Of a DNA stretch of 11,817 nt, positions 2,452-11,817 are shown piece by piece. Under the pieces are notes generated by a model. That model saw only the letters and a list, made by a program, of their open reading frames with translations, made no database searches and had not been told where the DNA came from. The DNA comes from a bacterium (lineage in GTDB: Bacteria > Vulcanimicrobiota > CADAWZ01): NCBI GenBank assembly GCA_024409025.1, contig JAKSUM010000011.1:1-11817 (forward strand), written 5' to 3'. Position 1 is the first letter of the stretch. Every line of letters starts with the position of its first letter. Made by a program: the position numbers and the translations under genes.

Positions 2452-3762
2452 ATGGAAAAGAAATACCACATAATAACTCTGGGATGCCAGAAGAATGAAT
2501 ATGATTCGCAGCTGATAGCGGCCCTTCTAAAATCCATGGGCTATGAAAGCACGGGGAAAATAGAAGAATGCGATATTCTTGTAATCAATACATGCTGTAT
2601 CAGGAATAAGGCTGATGTCAAGGTTTATGGAAGGCTTGGCCAGTACAGGGAGCTTAAGTCTGCAAATCCTGACCTTATAACAATAGTATCCGGATGTCTT
2701 GCAGAGAAGGACGGAAAGAGCCTTCTGTCGAGATTTTCCAATGTAAGCCTTGTTGTCGGACCTAGAAATATAAGCAGGATTCCTGAGCTTGTTGAATATG
2801 TACGCAGGACAGGAAAGAGAAGATGCGCTATAGGTCTTGGAAATATGAATTTTGAGATTATGCCTGTTCTCAGGGACAGAGCGTATGCTGCATGGATTCC
2901 TGTTACGGAAGGATGCGACTGCAGATGCACATACTGCATTGTACCCTATGTAAGGGGAGCAATGACCAGCAGGCCTTCCGAGCATATCGTTCATGAGGCT
3001 GAGGAGTTTGCAGCCTCCGGAGGGGTTGAGATAACTCTTCTCGGACAAAATGTGAATGCCTATGGCACCGATATTCCGGAATACGGTGATTTCGGCTCAA
3101 TCCTTGAAAAGATAAACGCCATAGACGGCATTAAAAGAATAAGATTTATGTCGCCTCATCCGAGAAATTTCTCTGACGCGTTTATTGAAAAAATGGCATC
3201 TCTTGAAAAGGTATGTCCGCATGTCCATCTTCCTCTCCAGTCTGGGGATGATACTATTCTCAGGAGAATGAACAGGAGATATGGAACCGATGAATATGCC
3301 CATATAGTGGATAAGCTAAGGTCATCAATAAATGACATTGCCATAACTACGGATATAATAGCCGGATTCCCGGGAGAAACTGAGGAGCAGTTCTCCAATA
3401 CCATGGAATTCGTTAAAAGGATGGAGTTTGACGGCGCCTTCATGTTTGCGTATTCCGAAAGGGAAGGTACTCCTGCCGTTAAGATAAATCCGCCCGTCCC
3501 TCCGCAGGAGCGTCTTGACAGGCTTAACAGGCTTATAGCCCTGCAGAACGACATAACATTTGCCAAGCACAGGCTTTATGAAGGCCGAGAAGCGGAGGTT
3601 CTTGTTGAAACCGTTTCCAAGAAGGACAGCGAGTTCCTCACCGGAAAGACTCTTCGCAAGGAGGTCGTCAATTTTACTGGTCCTGAAAATCTTGTCGGAA
3701 AGCTTGTCAGGGTAAGGCTTGCAAAGGCCTATACTTGGGGCTTTATGGGGGAAATGGTATAG
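2452..3762 (+). CDS. miaB: tRNA-2-methylthio-N6-dimethylallyladenosine synthase MiaB
   Basis: A radical-SAM methylthiotransferase that adds a methylthio group to i6A37 in tRNAs reading UNN codons; cytoplasmic. The 436-aa length is normal. The N-terminal UPF0004 domain supplies Cys12, Cys48 and Cys82 for the auxiliary iron-sulfur cluster. The radical-SAM triad CxxxCxxC is Cys155, Cys159 and Cys162, followed by IVPYVRG. SPHPRNF, HLPLQSG and DIIAGFPGET are MiaB-type signatures that favour MiaB over MtaB or RimO. A TRAM domain fills roughly 375-436. An extra Cys157 lies inside the triad and an extra Cys49 beside Cys48; neither breaks a motif. The ATG starts 1 nt after the protease stop with only a weak purine-rich site, so translation is probably coupled. 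A MiaA partner is not in the window. Confidence 0.95.
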   Translation: MEKKYHIITLGCQKNEYDSQLIAALLKSMGYESTGKIEECDILVINTCCIRNKADVKVYGRLGQYRELKSANPDLITIVSGCLAEKDGKSLLSRFSNVSLVVGPRNISRIPELVEYVRRTGKRRCAIGLGNMNFEIMPVLRDRAYAAWIPVTEGCDCRCTYCIVPYVRGAMTSRPSEHIVHEAEEFAASGGVEITLLGQNVNAYGTDIPEYGDFGSILEKINAIDGIKRIRFMSPHPRNFSDAFIEKMASLEKVCPHVHLPLQSGDDTILRRMNRRYGTDEYAHIVDKLRSSINDIAITTDIIAGFPGETEEQFSNTMEFVKRMEFDGAFMFAYSEREGTPAVKINPPVPPQERLDRLNRLIALQNDITFAKHRLYEGREAEVLVETVSKKDSEFLTGKTLRKEVVNFTGPENLVGKLVRVRLAKAYTWGFMGEMV

Positions 3763-3763
3763 A

Positions 3764-4843
3764 ATGTTAAGGCATATGAAATTTGCAATGCTTGCATTGC
3801 TGCTTGCATCCTCGTTTTTTATGATGGGCGTGATTGAGGGCGGAGATATTCCGGAGTATATAAGGAAGCAGGCTCATTCTGAAAAGGAATGCGGCGTCAG
3901 GACTATAAAGGACGGAAATATTTCCGATATATTCAAGCTTCAGGAGAATCCTGAATATGCGAAGATACTCTGCATTCAGACAAGCCCTGAGGCAATGAAT
4001 GCGGAATATGCCGGCATAATCATGAAATGGGTCAGGGAATCAGGACATACGGTATGGTTCTATGATTCAAGGCTTGCAGGCTGGTTTGGAATGGAGGCGT
4101 CGGATATAAATCCGGAAGGCGCTTTCTCCAAGGAGATAACAGGCGAGTACGGCGGAAGAAAGGTAAAAGGCAAGGCTGCGGTCGTGTCTGCTTTTGGAAA
4201 TCATAAGACGCTTTCCGGAGTCAACGGAGCTGTTGTTTTTCTTGTCCCTACAGGCGAAAATACCTACAGTGCGGTAAAATGCTCCGGAGTCACTCCTCTT
4301 TTAAAGCAGAACCTTGCATCAGATCAGGCTGTCTCTGCTATCAGGGAGGAAGGCAGCGGAAGGATTATACTCAAGCCCCTTTTATGGCCTGACAAAATTG
4401 ACGGGCTGAGATTCCAGACGAACATAATGGAATTCTCAGCAGGATATCCCGTCCCAGTTGTAACGGAAAAGGATTCGCCTATAACGGATGAGATGATGGT
4501 TCCATCAAAGTCATCGGACAAATGGGAAGAGATTGACGAAGTCGAGCTTTCGGACGGAAGAACCGTGTGGGGCAGAGTCAATAACGGCGAGTTTGTTTTT
4601 GAAGGCATTTCCAAAGGAAAAAAGATTAAAAAAGATGAAATAAAGACAATAGTCTTTTCCGAAAAAGGAAGCGGGCTTGATGCCGTTATTTTTGAAAACG
4701 GCAAAAGGCAGAAAGGACTGCTGTCACTGAGTGTTGACGGGCTTGTTTTTAAAACGCCATGTGGCAAGACGGTCAGAATAGGCAAAAAAGAAATTAAAAA
4801 GATAAGCTTCGGCTTGTCAAAGGAAAGGGATGCTGTAAAATAG
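3764..4843 (+). CDS. Exported protein of unknown function with two C-terminal barrel-like repeats
   Basis: I do not recognise this 359-aa protein. It opens with a hydrophobic stretch (residues about 5-23) that looks like a signal peptide or N-terminal anchor, so it should reach the envelope. Residues about 67-110 (KILCIQ, an alternating hydrophobic core, GHTVWFYD, GWFGM) look like an alpha/beta domain, vaguely like the glutamine-amidotransferase-like DUF4350 group; this is weak. The C-terminal third holds two similar units at about 257-298 and 307-349. Each follows the pattern V, (D/N)G(R/K), G, F, GK, I, EIK, I, F, suggesting two small beta barrels of SH3 or Sm type. ATG 3764 lies 1 nt after the miaB stop; ATG 3776 is an alternative giving 355 aa. 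It abuts hslU without a gap. The position between a protease operon gene and hslU suggests an envelope-quality role, as inference only. Confidence 0.82.
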   Translation: MLRHMKFAMLALLLASSFFMMGVIEGGDIPEYIRKQAHSEKECGVRTIKDGNISDIFKLQENPEYAKILCIQTSPEAMNAEYAGIIMKWVRESGHTVWFYDSRLAGWFGMEASDINPEGAFSKEITGEYGGRKVKGKAAVVSAFGNHKTLSGVNGAVVFLVPTGENTYSAVKCSGVTPLLKQNLASDQAVSAIREEGSGRIILKPLLWPDKIDGLRFQTNIMEFSAGYPVPVVTEKDSPITDEMMVPSKSSDKWEEIDEVELSDGRTVWGRVNNGEFVFEGISKGKKIKKDEIKTIVFSEKGSGLDAVIFENGKRQKGLLSLSVDGLVFKTPCGKTVRIGKKEIKKISFGLSKERDAVK

Positions 4844-7619: not shown

Positions 7620-8151
7620 GTTTTAAATTGTGTCTGTATCTTCTTAGATGCTCGTAAGATGTTATTGCAAATGCGTTCGAGACATTCAGTGAGTTTTTCA
7701 TCCCGAATGCCGGCAGCTCTGCCGCCATATCGGATTTTTGAAGAATTTCGCTGCTGAGTCCTTCCGTCTCATTTCCGAATATGAAGGCTGTCTTTTCCGG
7801 AAAATCTATGTCATATAGGCTTTTGCTCTCATCTGCCGTCTCCATTGCAATGACAAAATATCCCTCTTCCTTAAGCCTGTCTATAAGCTCCAATGTCGAA
7901 GGATAGTATTCCCAAGGGATATATTTTTCCGCTCCAAGAGCCGTTTTTTCAAGCTTTGGATTTGACGGGTATGGGGTATAGCCGCATAGGAACAGCTTTC
8001 CTATGCATGCCGCATCTGCCGTCCTCATCATGTTTCCGGCATTGAATGCGCTTCTTATGTTATCCAGGACTGCGGCAGACTGAAGCCTTTTCCGTTTGAA
8101 GAATTCCATTGCATCTTCAGATCTGTCCTTGTTTCTGATGTTGAAACTCAT
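7612..8151 (-). CDS. TrmH/SpoU-family RNA 2'-O-methyltransferase
   Basis: A SPOUT-fold methyltransferase that would transfer a methyl group from SAM to a ribose 2'-OH in tRNA or rRNA. At 179 aa it is a minimal catalytic domain, lacking the N-terminal substrate-binding domain of TrmH-like rRNA enzymes and closer in size to TrmL. The three SpoU motifs are present: motif 1 with NAGNMMRTAD (37-46, Arg43 likely catalytic), motif 2 FIFGNETEGLS (123-133) and motif 3 ELPAFG followed by NSLNVSNAFAI (153-163). These form the trefoil knot that binds SAM. Target RNA and position cannot be told from the sequence. It starts in an ATGA overlap with the metallopeptidase stop and overlaps the next gene by 8 nt. 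Confidence 0.92.
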   Translation of the reverse strand: MSFNIRNKDRSEDAMEFFKRKRLQSAAVLDNIRSAFNAGNMMRTADAACIGKLFLCGYTPYPSNPKLEKTALGAEKYIPWEYYPSTLELIDRLKEEGYFVIAMETADESKSLYDIDFPEKTAFIFGNETEGLSSEILQKSDMAAELPAFGMKNSLNVSNAFAITSYEHLRRYRHNLKHE

Positions 8152-8798
8152 TGTTCCAGTATTTCCTTTTTCAGCCTTTCAGCCTCATCTCTGTTGTTTA
8201 TCAGCCATTCCGTAAGCCTTATGCCGCCTTTGAGCTTTTTTTCCGCATTAAGGACGCTTTTAAAGCCCTTTCCGAATTTCAGGGTTTTAATGCCCATAAG
8301 TTTTTCCGCATTCTCCTTGTCACCTAGGCTCTTGAGCATTTTATATTCCATCCATCTTGCCATTGCCTCTCTTACCGGCTGGCTTTCCGTGAACAGCCTT
8401 TTTTCGTAAAGGAAGGCATGCATAAGCTCATGTGCGGCTATGGCAATGAACCGTTTCCTCGGAAGCCCTGCGATGATGTATATCATATGGTACTTTTCAT
8501 TGATCATCTTTTGGGAGTGGTATTTGCCTACATCCTCCTCCCTCCATTCAAAGCGAAGGGCAAAGCTGTTACGGTTTTTTATAAGCTCAAGCACTACAGG
8601 GTTCTTGACGCTGACGGAGTATCTCTCGCTTATCTCCGTCTTTGTCCTGTCAAGGATTTTTTTACCTATCAGGGGATCGGTTACTGTGTCATGGCTGTCC
8701 AGATCGAACGATTTTATGGCAATGCCGCTTTCTCTTCTGCCGGAAAAAAAATAATTGATTTCGGCAAAGAGCCTTGATATGAGGTTCATTATGCTCAT
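8148..8798 (-). CDS. DA1-like zinc metallopeptidase
   Basis: A predicted zinc peptidase of 216 aa. HELMH (His123, Glu124, His127) is the zinc/catalytic motif and Glu144 in PVREAMARWM is the likely third ligand. The order IYIIAGLPR, then AAHELMHAFL, then the downstream Glu with an aromatic-rich helix, follows the C-terminal peptidase domain of plant DA1 (GLPR, HExMHAWL, VEEG); here VREA replaces VEEG. The LIM and ubiquitin-interacting parts of plant DA1 are absent. The N-terminal 20 residues are moderately hydrophobic but not a clear signal peptide. Start is ATG 8798 or ATG 8789 three codons later; neither has a good Shine-Dalgarno site. A longer frame back to 8948 is rejected because it crosses a terminator and a neighbour's coding region. 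The gene heads a four-gene overlapping operon (ATGA overlap with the methyltransferase). Substrate unknown. Confidence 0.8.
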   Translation of the reverse strand: MSIMNLISRLFAEINYFFSGRRESGIAIKSFDLDSHDTVTDPLIGKKILDRTKTEISERYSVSVKNPVVLELIKNRNSFALRFEWREEDVGKYHSQKMINEKYHMIYIIAGLPRKRFIAIAAHELMHAFLYEKRLFTESQPVREAMARWMEYKMLKSLGDKENAEKLMGIKTLKFGKGFKSVLNAEKKLKGGIRLTEWLINNRDEAERLKKEILEQ

Positions 8799-8808
8799 GA
8801 TGCAAAAC

Positions 8809-8853
8809 AAAAAAACCTGCGGACGGCCATTATCGGTAAATCCGGCAGGTTTT
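8809..8853 (-). terminator. Intrinsic terminator of the small membrane protein gene
   Basis: On the minus strand the arms AAAACCTGC (8845-8853) and GCAGGTTTT (8812-8820) pair over 9 bp. Three more pairs (8841-8843 with 8821-8823) form past a bulged base, and a run of seven T follows (8809-8815). It lies 22 nt after the stop of the 73-residue gene. Its U-tract ends only about 10 nt before the start of the metallopeptidase gene, so it may act as an attenuator for the following operon. Confidence 0.85.
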
Positions 8854-8875
8854 GTAATTTTAAATATATGCCTCT

Positions 8876-9097
8876 TTATTCGGCTTTTGCTGCCTTTTTG
8901 GCTTTCTTTGTCTTTCCGAGAGCTTCGTTGATGTCGTCCTCCGTGCATCCCTGCTTGTTGGCAAGAACAGTCATAAGAATGGATATTCTTTCAAGCTGTA
9001 TGCTGGCCTCGCCGATTGCTTTGGATATGCTGGCAAGGAACATGCACATGAAAGCGAGAACGAGAATGACGACTGCACCTATTAGTACTGTATGCAT
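8876..9097 (-). CDS. 73-residue single-span membrane protein
   Basis: I do not recognise a family. Residues about 4-24 form one hydrophobic membrane segment. An amphipathic helix follows (about 25-47, with SIQLERISILMTVLANK), then an acidic turn GCTEDDINEA and a Lys/Ala-rich basic tail. The topology is probably N-terminus out or embedded, with the basic tail in the cytoplasm. The ATG at 9097 is the first start after two in-frame TAA codons and has a strong GGAGG (9110-9114), at the long distance of 12 nt. Its own terminator follows, so it is probably a single-gene transcript, divergent from the pilT pair. A role linked to pili is possible from position only. Confidence 0.75.
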   Translation of the reverse strand: MHTVLIGAVVILVLAFMCMFLASISKAIGEASIQLERISILMTVLANKQGCTEDDINEALGKTKKAKKAAKAE

Positions 9098-9267: not shown

Positions 9268-10359
9268 TTGAAAAACATAGACAAGCTTTTGAATTTTGTT
9301 ATCTCTAACGGCGGCTCCGATCTGCATGCTGCAGCCGGAAGCAGGCCAATGATGAGGAAAAACGGCATTCTTGAGACAACAGATTTTCCTTATCTTACCA
9401 ATTCAAACGTATATGAGCTTATGAAGGAAGTGCTCTCTCAGAAGGAAATACAAAAATTCACTTCCAATGCCGATATTGATTTCATATACCATTCAGAGGA
9501 CCTTGATCAGAGATTCAGGGCAAATGCCTTCTATCAGAAGAACGGCATGTCGATGGTATTCAGATGGATTCCGAAGGATATTCCTTCTCTGAAGGATCTT
9601 GGATTTTCAGAGAGCGTCAAGAAGGTCACTAAATTCCATCAGGGAATGGTGCTTGTGACAGGGCCCAGCGGCTGCGGAAAGACGACCACTATGGCCAGCC
9701 TTATAAACCTCATAAATGAAGAAAGATCCCTGCATATCATAACTGTTGAAGAGCCTGTGGAATATCTTCATTACAATAAAAATTCCCTTGTTGTGCAAAG
9801 AGAGATTGGGAAGGACGTCGATAATTTCCAGACAGCCCTGAAGGCGGCGCTGAGAGAGGATCCGGACGTAATTGTAATAGGAGAGCTAAGGGATCTTGAG
9901 ACTATTTCGCTTGCAATAACGGCGGCAGAGACAGGGCATCTTGTGTTTGGAACCATGAACACGAATGACGCCATACAGACTGTTGACAGGATTATAGATT
10001 CATATCCTCCGGATCAGCAGTCGCAGGTCAGGGTCATGTTTTCAGAATCGCTCAAGGCTGTAATATCGCAGCAGCTCGTTCCTCTTCAGAGCGGAGAGGG
10101 AAGGACATGCGCCTATGAGCTTCTCATTGGCAACAGCTCGGTAGCAAATCTTATCAGAGACGGAAAGCAGTATCAGATAATAAACACTATGGCTACTGGA
10201 AAGAAGATGGGAATGCAGCTGATGGACAATTCTCTCATAGATCTCGTAATGGCAGGAAAAATTTCGCTTGAAACTGCTATGGAGCACTCTCAGAATTCAT
10301 CCGGATTAAAAGACAAGTATGACAAGGTTATGTCGGCACAGCAGGGAGGTATGAGATGA
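9268..10359 (+). CDS. pilT: PilT-family type IV pilus ATPase, copy 1 (altered His box)
   Basis: A hexameric secretion ATPase of the PilT (pilus retraction) group, acting at the cytoplasmic base of the pilus. At 363 aa its length is normal. The start region IDKLLNFVISNGGSDLH is the typical PilT opening. Walker A is GPSGCGKTT (132-140) and Walker B VIVIGELRDLETI (201-213). The Asp box reads EEPVE (161-165) where the family has EDPIE. In the His box, His224 of TGH is kept, but the LHTN histidine is Asn231. An AIRNLIRE-like segment, VANLIRDGK (292-300), is present. The start is TTG 9268, directly after an in-frame stop; the good GGAGG lies 12 nt upstream and no in-frame ATG is near. It overlaps the next gene by 4 nt. 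PilT or PilU-like cannot be decided; the changed boxes suggest a specialised or partner-dependent subunit. Confidence 0.92.
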   Translation: MKNIDKLLNFVISNGGSDLHAAAGSRPMMRKNGILETTDFPYLTNSNVYELMKEVLSQKEIQKFTSNADIDFIYHSEDLDQRFRANAFYQKNGMSMVFRWIPKDIPSLKDLGFSESVKKVTKFHQGMVLVTGPSGCGKTTTMASLINLINEERSLHIITVEEPVEYLHYNKNSLVVQREIGKDVDNFQTALKAALREDPDVIVIGELRDLETISLAITAAETGHLVFGTMNTNDAIQTVDRIIDSYPPDQQSQVRVMFSESLKAVISQQLVPLQSGEGRTCAYELLIGNSSVANLIRDGKQYQIINTMATGKKMGMQLMDNSLIDLVMAGKISLETAMEHSQNSSGLKDKYDKVMSAQQGGMR

Positions 10360-11666
10360 ACTTTTTCGGTTTCGGCAAAAAACAGCAGCCACAGCAGCAG
10401 AGTCAGGAGGTTTTCGGATTCCGGACTCAGGCTCCTGTCCAGAGGACTTCCCCTTATGCTGAACAGAAGCCTCAGCAGGCTCCGGCACAGCAGTCCTATT
10501 CATCATCTTCTTCCATGTCATCATCCTCATCAAAACCAGAGGATGAGCCTATCCTTGTGACGGAGGAGATTGCCGGAAAGCAGATAAGCATAGATCTTCC
10601 GGAAATTACTATAGACGGACTTTTGAGCAAGATGAAGGAAATCAAGGCTTCCGATCTTCACTTTGAAACGTCATCGCAGCCGATATACAGGATTAACGGA
10701 GATATGCATTTTACCGATCTTCCCAAGATTACTCAGGAATTTGCGGAAAAACTCCTCTATCCGCTTATTACCGATTCCCAAAGGAATATCCTTAATTCCA
10801 CGGGAAACCTCGACTTCTGCTATGAGATACCGAACGTGGCAAGATTCAGGGCAAATTATCTGCGCCACAGGGGAGGCCTTGGAGCCGTTTTCCGCATCAT
10901 CCCTTCTAAAATACCAACTGCGGAGGAATTGAATCTTCCTGAGGTCATAAAGACTATTGCCAACTTCAAAAAAGGAATAATACTTGTTACAGGGCCTACA
11001 GGAAGCGGCAAGACGACCACTATGGCCGCCATGATTAACTACATAAACCAGACGAGAAAGGCTCATATCATTACTATTGAGGATCCTATCGAATTTACGC
11101 ATACTCCTGTAAACTGTCTGATATCGCATAGGGAGATAAGGCAGCATGCAAAGTCGTTCAATACTGCGCTTAAGGCTGCTCTGAGAGAAGATCCTGATGT
11201 TATTCTGGTAGGCGAGCTTAGGGATCTTGAGACTATATCTCTGGCGCTTACGGCTGCCCAGATGGGTGTTCTTGTCATGGGTACTCTTCATACGAACAGC
11301 GCCACAAAGACTGTCGACAGGATGATTGACGTATTTCCGCCGAAACAGCAGGAGCAGGCAAGAGTCCAGCTTTCCCCGTCCCTAAGGGCGATAATAGCCC
11401 AGCAGCTTATCAAAAAGGCTGACGGCAAGGGCAGGGTTGCGGCCATGGAAATACTTATATCGGATCTCGGTCTTGCGAATATAATCAGGGAAGGAAAGTC
11501 GCCCCAGATACCGACCCAGATCATAATGGGAAAGAGCAGGGGAATGCAGCTTATGGACAATGTCCTTATTGATCTGGTAAAAAATAACGTTATAACTAAA
11601 GAGGATGCCATGCTGAGGGCCAAGGATCTTAAACTCTTTGAAAGGGCAGGCATAAAAGTCAGCTGA
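10356..11666 (+). CDS. PilT-family ATPase, copy 2, with Gln/Ser-rich N-terminal extension
   Basis: A second retraction-type ATPase of 436 aa, paralogous to the upstream one. The first 80 or so residues are a low-complexity tail rich in Gln, Pro and Ser (a run of Ser at about 48-59), unlike usual PilT; the conserved core begins near residue 84 with ITIDGLL. Walker A is GPTGSGKTT (213-221), the Asp box IEDPIEFTH (241-249) is canonical, and Walker B is VILVGELRDLETI (282-294). In the His box the TGH histidine is Val305, while His312 of LHTN is kept, the reverse of copy 1. The AIRNLIRE-like segment is LANIIREGK (373-381). It starts in an ATGA overlap with copy 1 behind a good GGGAGG, so the two proteins are made together and may form mixed hexamers. 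The dus gene follows after 1 nt. Confidence 0.92.
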   Translation: MNFFGFGKKQQPQQQSQEVFGFRTQAPVQRTSPYAEQKPQQAPAQQSYSSSSSMSSSSSKPEDEPILVTEEIAGKQISIDLPEITIDGLLSKMKEIKASDLHFETSSQPIYRINGDMHFTDLPKITQEFAEKLLYPLITDSQRNILNSTGNLDFCYEIPNVARFRANYLRHRGGLGAVFRIIPSKIPTAEELNLPEVIKTIANFKKGIILVTGPTGSGKTTTMAAMINYINQTRKAHIITIEDPIEFTHTPVNCLISHREIRQHAKSFNTALKAALREDPDVILVGELRDLETISLALTAAQMGVLVMGTLHTNSATKTVDRMIDVFPPKQQEQARVQLSPSLRAIIAQQLIKKADGKGRVAAMEILISDLGLANIIREGKSPQIPTQIIMGKSRGMQLMDNVLIDLVKNNVITKEDAMLRAKDLKLFERAGIKVS

Positions 11667-11667
11667 T

Positions 11668-11817
11668 ATGACGGGTTTTAGTATAGCAGGCAGGTCTTTT
11701 GACAGCAGGATAATAGCGGCTCCTCTTGCAGGAGTTACGGATGTCGCGTTCCGCAGGATAATAAGGGCCTTCTTCAGCGGCCTTGCATGTGCGGCAATGA
11801 TAAGCAGCCAGAGCCTG
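11668..11817 (+). CDS. tRNA-dihydrouridine synthase, 3'-truncated by the window edge
   Basis: Only the first 50 residues are visible. IIAAPLAGVTDVAFRRIIR matches the FMN-binding start of Dus enzymes (family pattern APMAGVTDxPFR), and MISSQSL fits the following strand and helix. Dus enzymes reduce uridine to dihydrouridine in tRNA D-loops with FMN and NADPH. Position 20 has Leu where the family usually has Met, a conservative change. The catalytic Cys lies beyond the window, so activity and DusA/B/C type cannot be judged. The ATG lies 1 nt after the stop of the second pilT gene, suggesting co-transcription with the pilus ATPases. Confidence 0.87.
   Translation, partial: MTGFSIAGRSFDSRIIAAPLAGVTDVAFRRIIRAFFSGLACAAMISSQSL

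Follow-up and report, generated by a model that had tools for sequence, protein, structure and literature searches.

Interface residues of described pilus motors

The closest described systems are PilT and the PilT-PilU pair of retraction-type ATPases. In PilT, H230 touches the nucleotide and is itself reached by T221 from the next packing unit only where the interface is closed; the T221-H230 distance defines open and closed interfaces, and the ring forms described include CCCCCC, OCOCOC, and OOCOOC (PMC6858323). These contacts place H230 on the ATP-holding side of the interface and T221 on the neighboring subunit. The trans T221 also contacts T133 of Walker A (PMC6858323), and in PilB the threonine equivalent to T221 is sandwiched between both histidines (PMC5424180). 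We take H223 to act, probably, from the chain that also provides T221. The numbers of T221 and H230 are those of PMC6858323, and the numbering of H223 was derived from alignment offsets. The H229A mutant of Pseudomonas PilT is described as having lost twitching in PMC6858323, where phage resistance is stated for the E204A control only; in PMC12607626, H229A supports slight twitching, which needs PilU and the PilA A34T background. PilT and PilU of V. cholerae interact and are reported as separate homohexamers (PMC6821130). Heterohexameric pilus motors have been a matter of speculation (PMC6711533).

The tandem PilT genes of the window

The window is an 11,817-nucleotide stretch of a bacterial genome of the phylum Vulcanimicrobiota (contig JAKSUM010000011.1). 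It carries two PilT-family genes arranged head to tail, PilT-A and PilT-B (A and B below; Table 1). TIGR01420, which describes the PilT/PilU family of type 4a pilus ATPases, has a curated cut-off of 319.1 bits, and both proteins score above it (A, 431.9 bits; B, 439.5 bits). Solved PilTs aligned to them across the entire PilT domain, the best five per gene with E values of about 9e-89 to 9e-100. The PilT matches in B begin at residues 83-89, behind an N-terminal extension which, among 14 aligned B sequences, is variable in length, poorly conserved, and short or missing in some. The C-terminal stretches SVANLIRD of A and GLANIIRE of B resemble AIRNLIRE of PilT.

Table 1. Positions of the PilT pair, its motifs, and the following gene in the window
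Feature	Position	Strand	Remark
PilT-A, PilT-family ATPase, first gene	9268..10359	+	TTG start, 363 aa
PilT-B, PilT-family ATPase, second gene	10356..11666	+	ATG start, 436 aa
A stop / B start overlap, ATGA	10356..10359	+	sequence
Walker A of PilT-A, GPSGCGKT	9661..9684	+	canonical form GPTGSGKS/T; lysine present
Walker A of PilT-B, GPTGSGKT, canonical	10992..11015	+	sequence
His box of PilT-A, TGHLVFGTMNT	9931..9963	+	sequence, alignment to PilT
His box of PilT-B, MGVLVMGTLHT	11262..11294	+	sequence, alignment to PilT
PilT-A His224, CAT	9937-9939	+	codon
PilT-A Asn231, AAC	9958-9960	+	codon
PilT-B Met303, ATG	11262-11264	+	codon
PilT-B Val305, GTT	11268-11270	+	codon
PilT-B His312, CAT	11289-11291	+	codon
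PilT-B His258 at the Q176 position	11127..11129	+	alignment
N-terminal extension of PilT-B, ~81 aa, Q/S-rich	10356..10598	+	beyond the PilT match
Start of next gene, probably tRNA-dihydrouridine synthase	11668..11817	+	inferred from relative G002

T222, H224, and N231 of A align to T221, H223, and H230 of Geobacter metallireducens PilT (6ojx), and M303, V305, and H312 of B align to the same three residues. A has the trans-side T222 and H224, with N231 at the position of the γ-phosphate histidine. B has this histidine (H312), and the trans-side T221 and H223 are replaced. By this alignment, A has retained the neighbor-side set and lost the ATP-side histidine, and B the reverse. The initial annotation had described overlapping genes with one histidine lost in each copy, and the codons, the boxes (TGH...MNT in A and MGV...LHT in B), and the shared ATGA confirm that description. 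It had also taken both histidines to be normal for PilT. TGH...LHT is indeed found in all five aligned PilT chains that were viewed residue by residue, and both histidines are present in all 36 other PilT sequences of the phylum described below; neither A (N231) nor B (V305) has both in one chain. The annotation missed the loss of the threonine in B (M303), which we think is the more telling change. The asparagine of A and the valine of B are seen again in three other genomes of the family (4/4), which speaks against a sequencing error. With the changes conserved in the family and the other motifs complete, both a sequencing error and a decayed pseudogene were ruled out.

In the window genome, which is 69% complete, a PilB/GspE-like ATPase (assigned by motif) adjoins a PilT on C241, and another is found on C2. 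Together with nine T2SSF platform-domain matches and nine N_methyl prepilin matches, they make a type IV pilus likely. None of the annotated genes that precede the pair has a known pilus role. About 150 bases of the window remain after B, and the gene directly after B in G002 is Dus (PF01207). Few neighbors were in common among 17 longer stretches, and the ten flanking proteins scanned included one platform protein (G004:C35). The gene order at G004:C35 (L129 4581-10003) is kinase, T2SSF platform protein, PilT-A, and PilT-B. Upstream of the pair, the minus strand of the window encodes a DA1-like putative metallopeptidase with a HELMH motif (8148-8948), which has a relative near the pair in G001 and G002 (54% identity), in G004 (44%), and in G007 (31%). 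A 374-aa protein with no Pfam match is encoded at 3719-4843, between genes that we take, from sequence and domains, to be miaB and an HslU-like gene.

Distribution of the losses in the phylum and beyond

A first listing of PilT-like matches covered 38 genomes, the window's included; a second, made with separate profiles of A and B, covered 149 genomes of the phylum. The phylum counts rest on the matches listed, that is, on the stretches around noticed tandem matches and a sample of single matches; phylum loci fetched later are outside the counts, except that L113-L115 appear in the larger trees. From 151 distinct matches, six shorter than 230 residues and one duplicate or unplaced match were removed, leaving 144 sequences. 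Ten further sequences were kept off the tree: seven PilB/GspE-like proteins, the highly degenerate second genes of L106 and L108, and the fusion protein L007. Because L106, L108, and L007 lack an intact His box, the statement that other PilTs are intact is valid for the remaining 36 sequences, several of which themselves belong to other kinds of tandem pair.

The loci of these excluded proteins have features of their own. A second tandem pair in the window's family consists of a PilT followed by a PilT-like protein that has a Walker A and resembles a pseudo-ATPase (G000:C125, L004 1387-3200; L106 213-2198; L108 680-2599). In the second gene of L106 and L108, the Asp box (ENP) is altered, as are Walker B and the His box; the second gene of G000:C125 runs past the contig end. 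At G000:C34 (L007 439-2301), a 621-aa frame carries a long N-terminal region fused to a PilT-like domain, in which Walker B (SGDIDSYE) and the His box (MYS) are degenerate.

In a tree built without the His-box columns, A forms a clade of 51 sequences (SH-aLRT 99), stemming from at least 28 of the 149 phylum genomes, and B a clade of 47 (SH-aLRT 97). With 67 extra sequences, A stayed exclusive (98) and B (98) gained one sequence from the same phylum. In a tree of 227 sequences, from which seven long or odd ones were omitted, four first-gene sequences of other phyla joined A with a support of 86, and the nearest neighbors of B were poorly supported. The sister relation of A and B had a support of 83 within the phylum and was gone once sequences of other phyla were added, and we do not rely on it. 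The reference set was partly picked by His-box motif, and its residue frequencies at these positions were excluded.

The losses fall on different sides in the two clades. Among A sequences, T221 is present in 50/51, H223 in 51/51, and H230 in 33/51 (replaced by N in 15, P in 2, and Q in 1). In B, H230 is present in 46/47, T221 is lost in 15/47 (14 M, 1 S; present in 32), and H223 is lost in 29/47 (present in 18). Each of the three residues is present in 36/36 of the other PilTs of the phylum, and the position corresponding to T133 is a threonine in 20/51 A and 46/47 B. K137, E160, and E164 are present in all 51 A and 47 B sequences, the window's included, and the catalytic Glu is present in 50/51 A and 47/47 B. 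With these residues retained, neither A nor B resembles a dead protein. The Arg finger R81 is found in 51/51 A and 45/47 B (one C, one gap).

The initial annotation had proposed testing whether the two substitutions always occur together in genome pairs, and strict co-occurrence was ruled out: both losses are found in 10/47 pairs (one of them mirrored), a single loss in 27, and none in 10. The single-loss pairs comprise 14 with B H223 lost, 6 with B T221 and H223 lost, and 7 with A H230 lost. Nine pairs combine loss of A H230 with loss of B T221 and H223, namely those of the four family genomes including the window's, two pairs of G004, one of G006, and two of G007. The complete triad of T221, H223, and H230 would be available at A-A contacts in 30 pairs, at B-B contacts in 17, at B sites with trans residues of A in 46, and at A sites with trans residues of B in 11. 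Some mixed A/B triad is complete in 47/47 pairs, and in 10 pairs no single-protein triad is.

The only exceptions to the side rule are both genes of the mirrored pair, G012:C76 (L125 3824-6359), in which gene 1 reads VGH..MHT and gene 2 reads TGH..MQT. Since the pair is mirrored in both genes, its mixed site is still complete. Gene 2 also has S at D161 and W at R207, and both sequences lie on long branches in open forks, which makes their assignment to A or B less sure. Shared descent among the 47 pairs means that the independent losses are far fewer. On the trees, A230 must have changed at least 7 times, B221 at least 3 times, and B223 at least 4 times (10 if the residues at 223 are distinguished). 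A rough Fisher test on these event counts, in which the mirrored pair was scored as a violation of the rule, gave p = 0.03 or 0.001 depending on the B count. In a plain Fisher test that ignores kinship, loss of A H230 is associated with loss of B T221 (p = 0.019) and not with loss of B H223 (p = 0.75); a tree-aware coupling test had only 3 usable contrasts and no power.

A and B occur together. Among the sequences fetched, a full B adjoins 47/51 A, and an A stands beside 47/47 B. B sequence lies downstream in 50/51 A; the remaining one (L066) is at a contig edge, and three have an incomplete B (L030 at a contig end, L059 in two frames, and L084 interrupted by N). Neither variant was found without its partner gene among these sequences (50/51 A and 47/47 B paired); a variant standing alone is what the initial annotation had named as counting against its idea. 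A ends in ATGA in 11/47 pairs. In 32 of the other 36, an ATG or GTG, counted in any frame, is found at most 27 bases from the A stop. The distances within A and within B correlate in a mirror-tree comparison with r = 0.87, and re-pairing within the 15 multi-pair genomes gave a maximum r of 0.78 in 5000 trials. These mirror-tree and pairing results indicate that the pair is inherited as a unit, and we infer that it was also duplicated as one unit.

From genomes outside the phylum, 60 stretches were taken, eight of them because two matches lay near each other or a relative had a pair, and the others for a high-scoring match. After dropping two sequences of other ATPase types, 35 same-strand adjacencies remained, and removal of two inter-pair gaps left 33, two of which come from one three-gene run. 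The second gene lacks H223 in 14/33. In those 14, TGH of the first gene is always present (14/14) and its H230 nearly always (13/14), with H230 of the second gene present in 14/14; ten of the 14 come from G172 and G319 (one family), G367, and G225, so the independent origins are fewer. G297 shows the full combination again, with N in the first gene and neither T nor H in the second. No loss of H223 in the first gene was found among the 33 adjacencies. The remaining 19/33 are intact, many of them of PilT-PilU type. Non-tandem PilTs outside the phylum are intact in 28/29 (the exception, L184 of G247, reads TGQ). Taken with the 36/36 intact sequences inside the phylum, this indicates that these residues are not free to vary in other PilTs; free variation was the other outcome that the annotation had said would speak against it.

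A divergent pair at G142:C23 (L114 1308-2639 and 2725-3747), which is not among the 47, has N230 in its first gene and a second gene without T221 and H223. The second gene has also lost the Walker A lysine (K to R, GSGRT) and an Arg finger position, and the first gene falls outside the A clade. With these losses, no obviously competent site is left.

Possible assemblies and comparison with known motors

We tentatively favor a mixed PilT hexamer, probably an alternating A3B3, in which A and B would be the two subunit types of one retraction motor. B would bind and hydrolyze ATP through its canonical Walker A and H312, and the neighboring A would provide the trans threonine and histidine (T222 and H224), closing the interface. 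At the reverse interface, where the A site with N231 would face M303 and V305 of B, the trans threonine and histidine would both be missing, and it may stay open or hydrolyze poorly. Only three of the six sites in such a ring would then fire. The shared ring, the alternating order, and the function in pilus retraction are all predictions. The idea of a hetero-oligomer gains support from what was observed, namely the residues found in each copy, the asymmetry of the losses, the pairing of the genes, and their inheritance as a unit. The losses in A and in B also lie across the described subunit interface from each other, which is the pattern expected of a mixed ring.

The initial annotation had proposed that the two proteins may be halves of one obligate motor. 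The opposite-side losses and the joint pairing speak for two halves, and the uncoupled losses in 27/47 pairs speak against the obligate part. Pairs with a loss in A only (7), in B only (20), or in neither (10) indicate that the His-box residues do not enforce mixing everywhere. Less probable than the mixed ring itself is a more far-reaching version, in which A3B3 heterohexamers would be obligate and would make up an ancient and widespread class of retraction motors. Three interfaces of each ring would be catalytic (B-site/A-trans) and three degenerate, locked in alternating closed and open states, and the kept side could be swapped between the genes as in G012:C76.

The main alternative is that each protein makes a homohexamer of its own and that the two rings stack or take turns on the platform protein. 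A would be a coupling or low-activity ring that connects B to the machine, B would be the powered one, and the His-box changes would tune each ring separately. The V. cholerae homohexamers are a model for this arrangement (PMC6821130), and PMC6762196 argues against mixed hexamers. H229A of Pseudomonas PilT together with PilU is a precedent for an A without H230 beside an intact partner (PMC12607626); since that mutant retains some function when PilU is present, A by itself may well be active and the stacked-ring arrangement is still a good model. The seven pairs with a loss in A alone also fit. Separate rings give no account of why B loses the trans-side T221 and H223 while A almost never does, or of why the sole exceptional pair is mirrored in both genes, and in the window each single-protein ring would miss part of the triad. 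The mixed ring is to us the best single explanation, followed closely by the two homohexamers.

Relaxed constraint after duplication is improbable as the main cause. Drift at dispensable positions would make the complementary look a by-product of two ancestral specializations, and it would suit the lineage-dependent states (N, P, or Q at H230; V, A, L, I, Y, or R at H223), the at least 7 changes of A230 and at least 4 of B223 on the trees, and the ten pairs without any loss. It does not explain why the remaining catalytic residues are almost invariant, why the losses are one-sided per clade across the phylum with the B-type loss recurring in other phyla, or why the non-tandem PilTs barely vary (28/29). 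Least probable is an internal replacement in B by histidine at Q176 (H258 in the window), which would leave B a complete homohexameric motor and only A altered: His176 is found in 25/29 B sequences without H223, in 4/18 with H223, and in 0/51 A, but outside the A and B sets only 2/16 sequences without H223 have it and six have it together with an intact H223, and a tree test had only 2 usable contrasts.

If the mixed ring is true, it would be a new arrangement for pilus-retraction motors, and it would be relevant to the number of sites, out of six, that must fire and to whether a threefold cycle can drive retraction. A natural pair that divides the ATP-side and neighbor-side residues is a clean system for the heterohexamer question. 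We found no description of the A/B residue asymmetry in the literature searched, in which subscription papers were scarcely covered.

Compared with PilT (TIGR01420; structures 3jvu, 6ojx, and 2gsz), A and B are alike in scoring above the cut-off over an entire PilT domain and in having the Walker A lysine, the Asp-box glutamates, the catalytic Glu, and the Arg fingers. They differ in that neither copy in the window has both histidines, B also lacks the trans threonine, and the two form a tandem pair in separate clades. The PilT-PilU pairs of V. cholerae and P. aeruginosa likewise consist of two retraction-type ATPases, and PilU depends on PilT. A PilT gene followed directly by a PilU-like one was also found in the outside loci, where the label is given by motif (FAETGH..LHANN, which we take to be typical of PilU). 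Those PilU-like sequences have TGH and LH[A/S], whereas both members of the A/B pair resemble PilT and fall into clades of their own; B as a PilU was ruled out by its His-box context and the tree, and the PilU-type box is absent from A and B. The F1-ATPase is a heterohexameric α3β3 ring with catalytic and non-catalytic interfaces. By analogy, and with no homology implied, the predicted A/B ring would resemble it in being built from two paralogous subunits with three competent and three degenerate sites.
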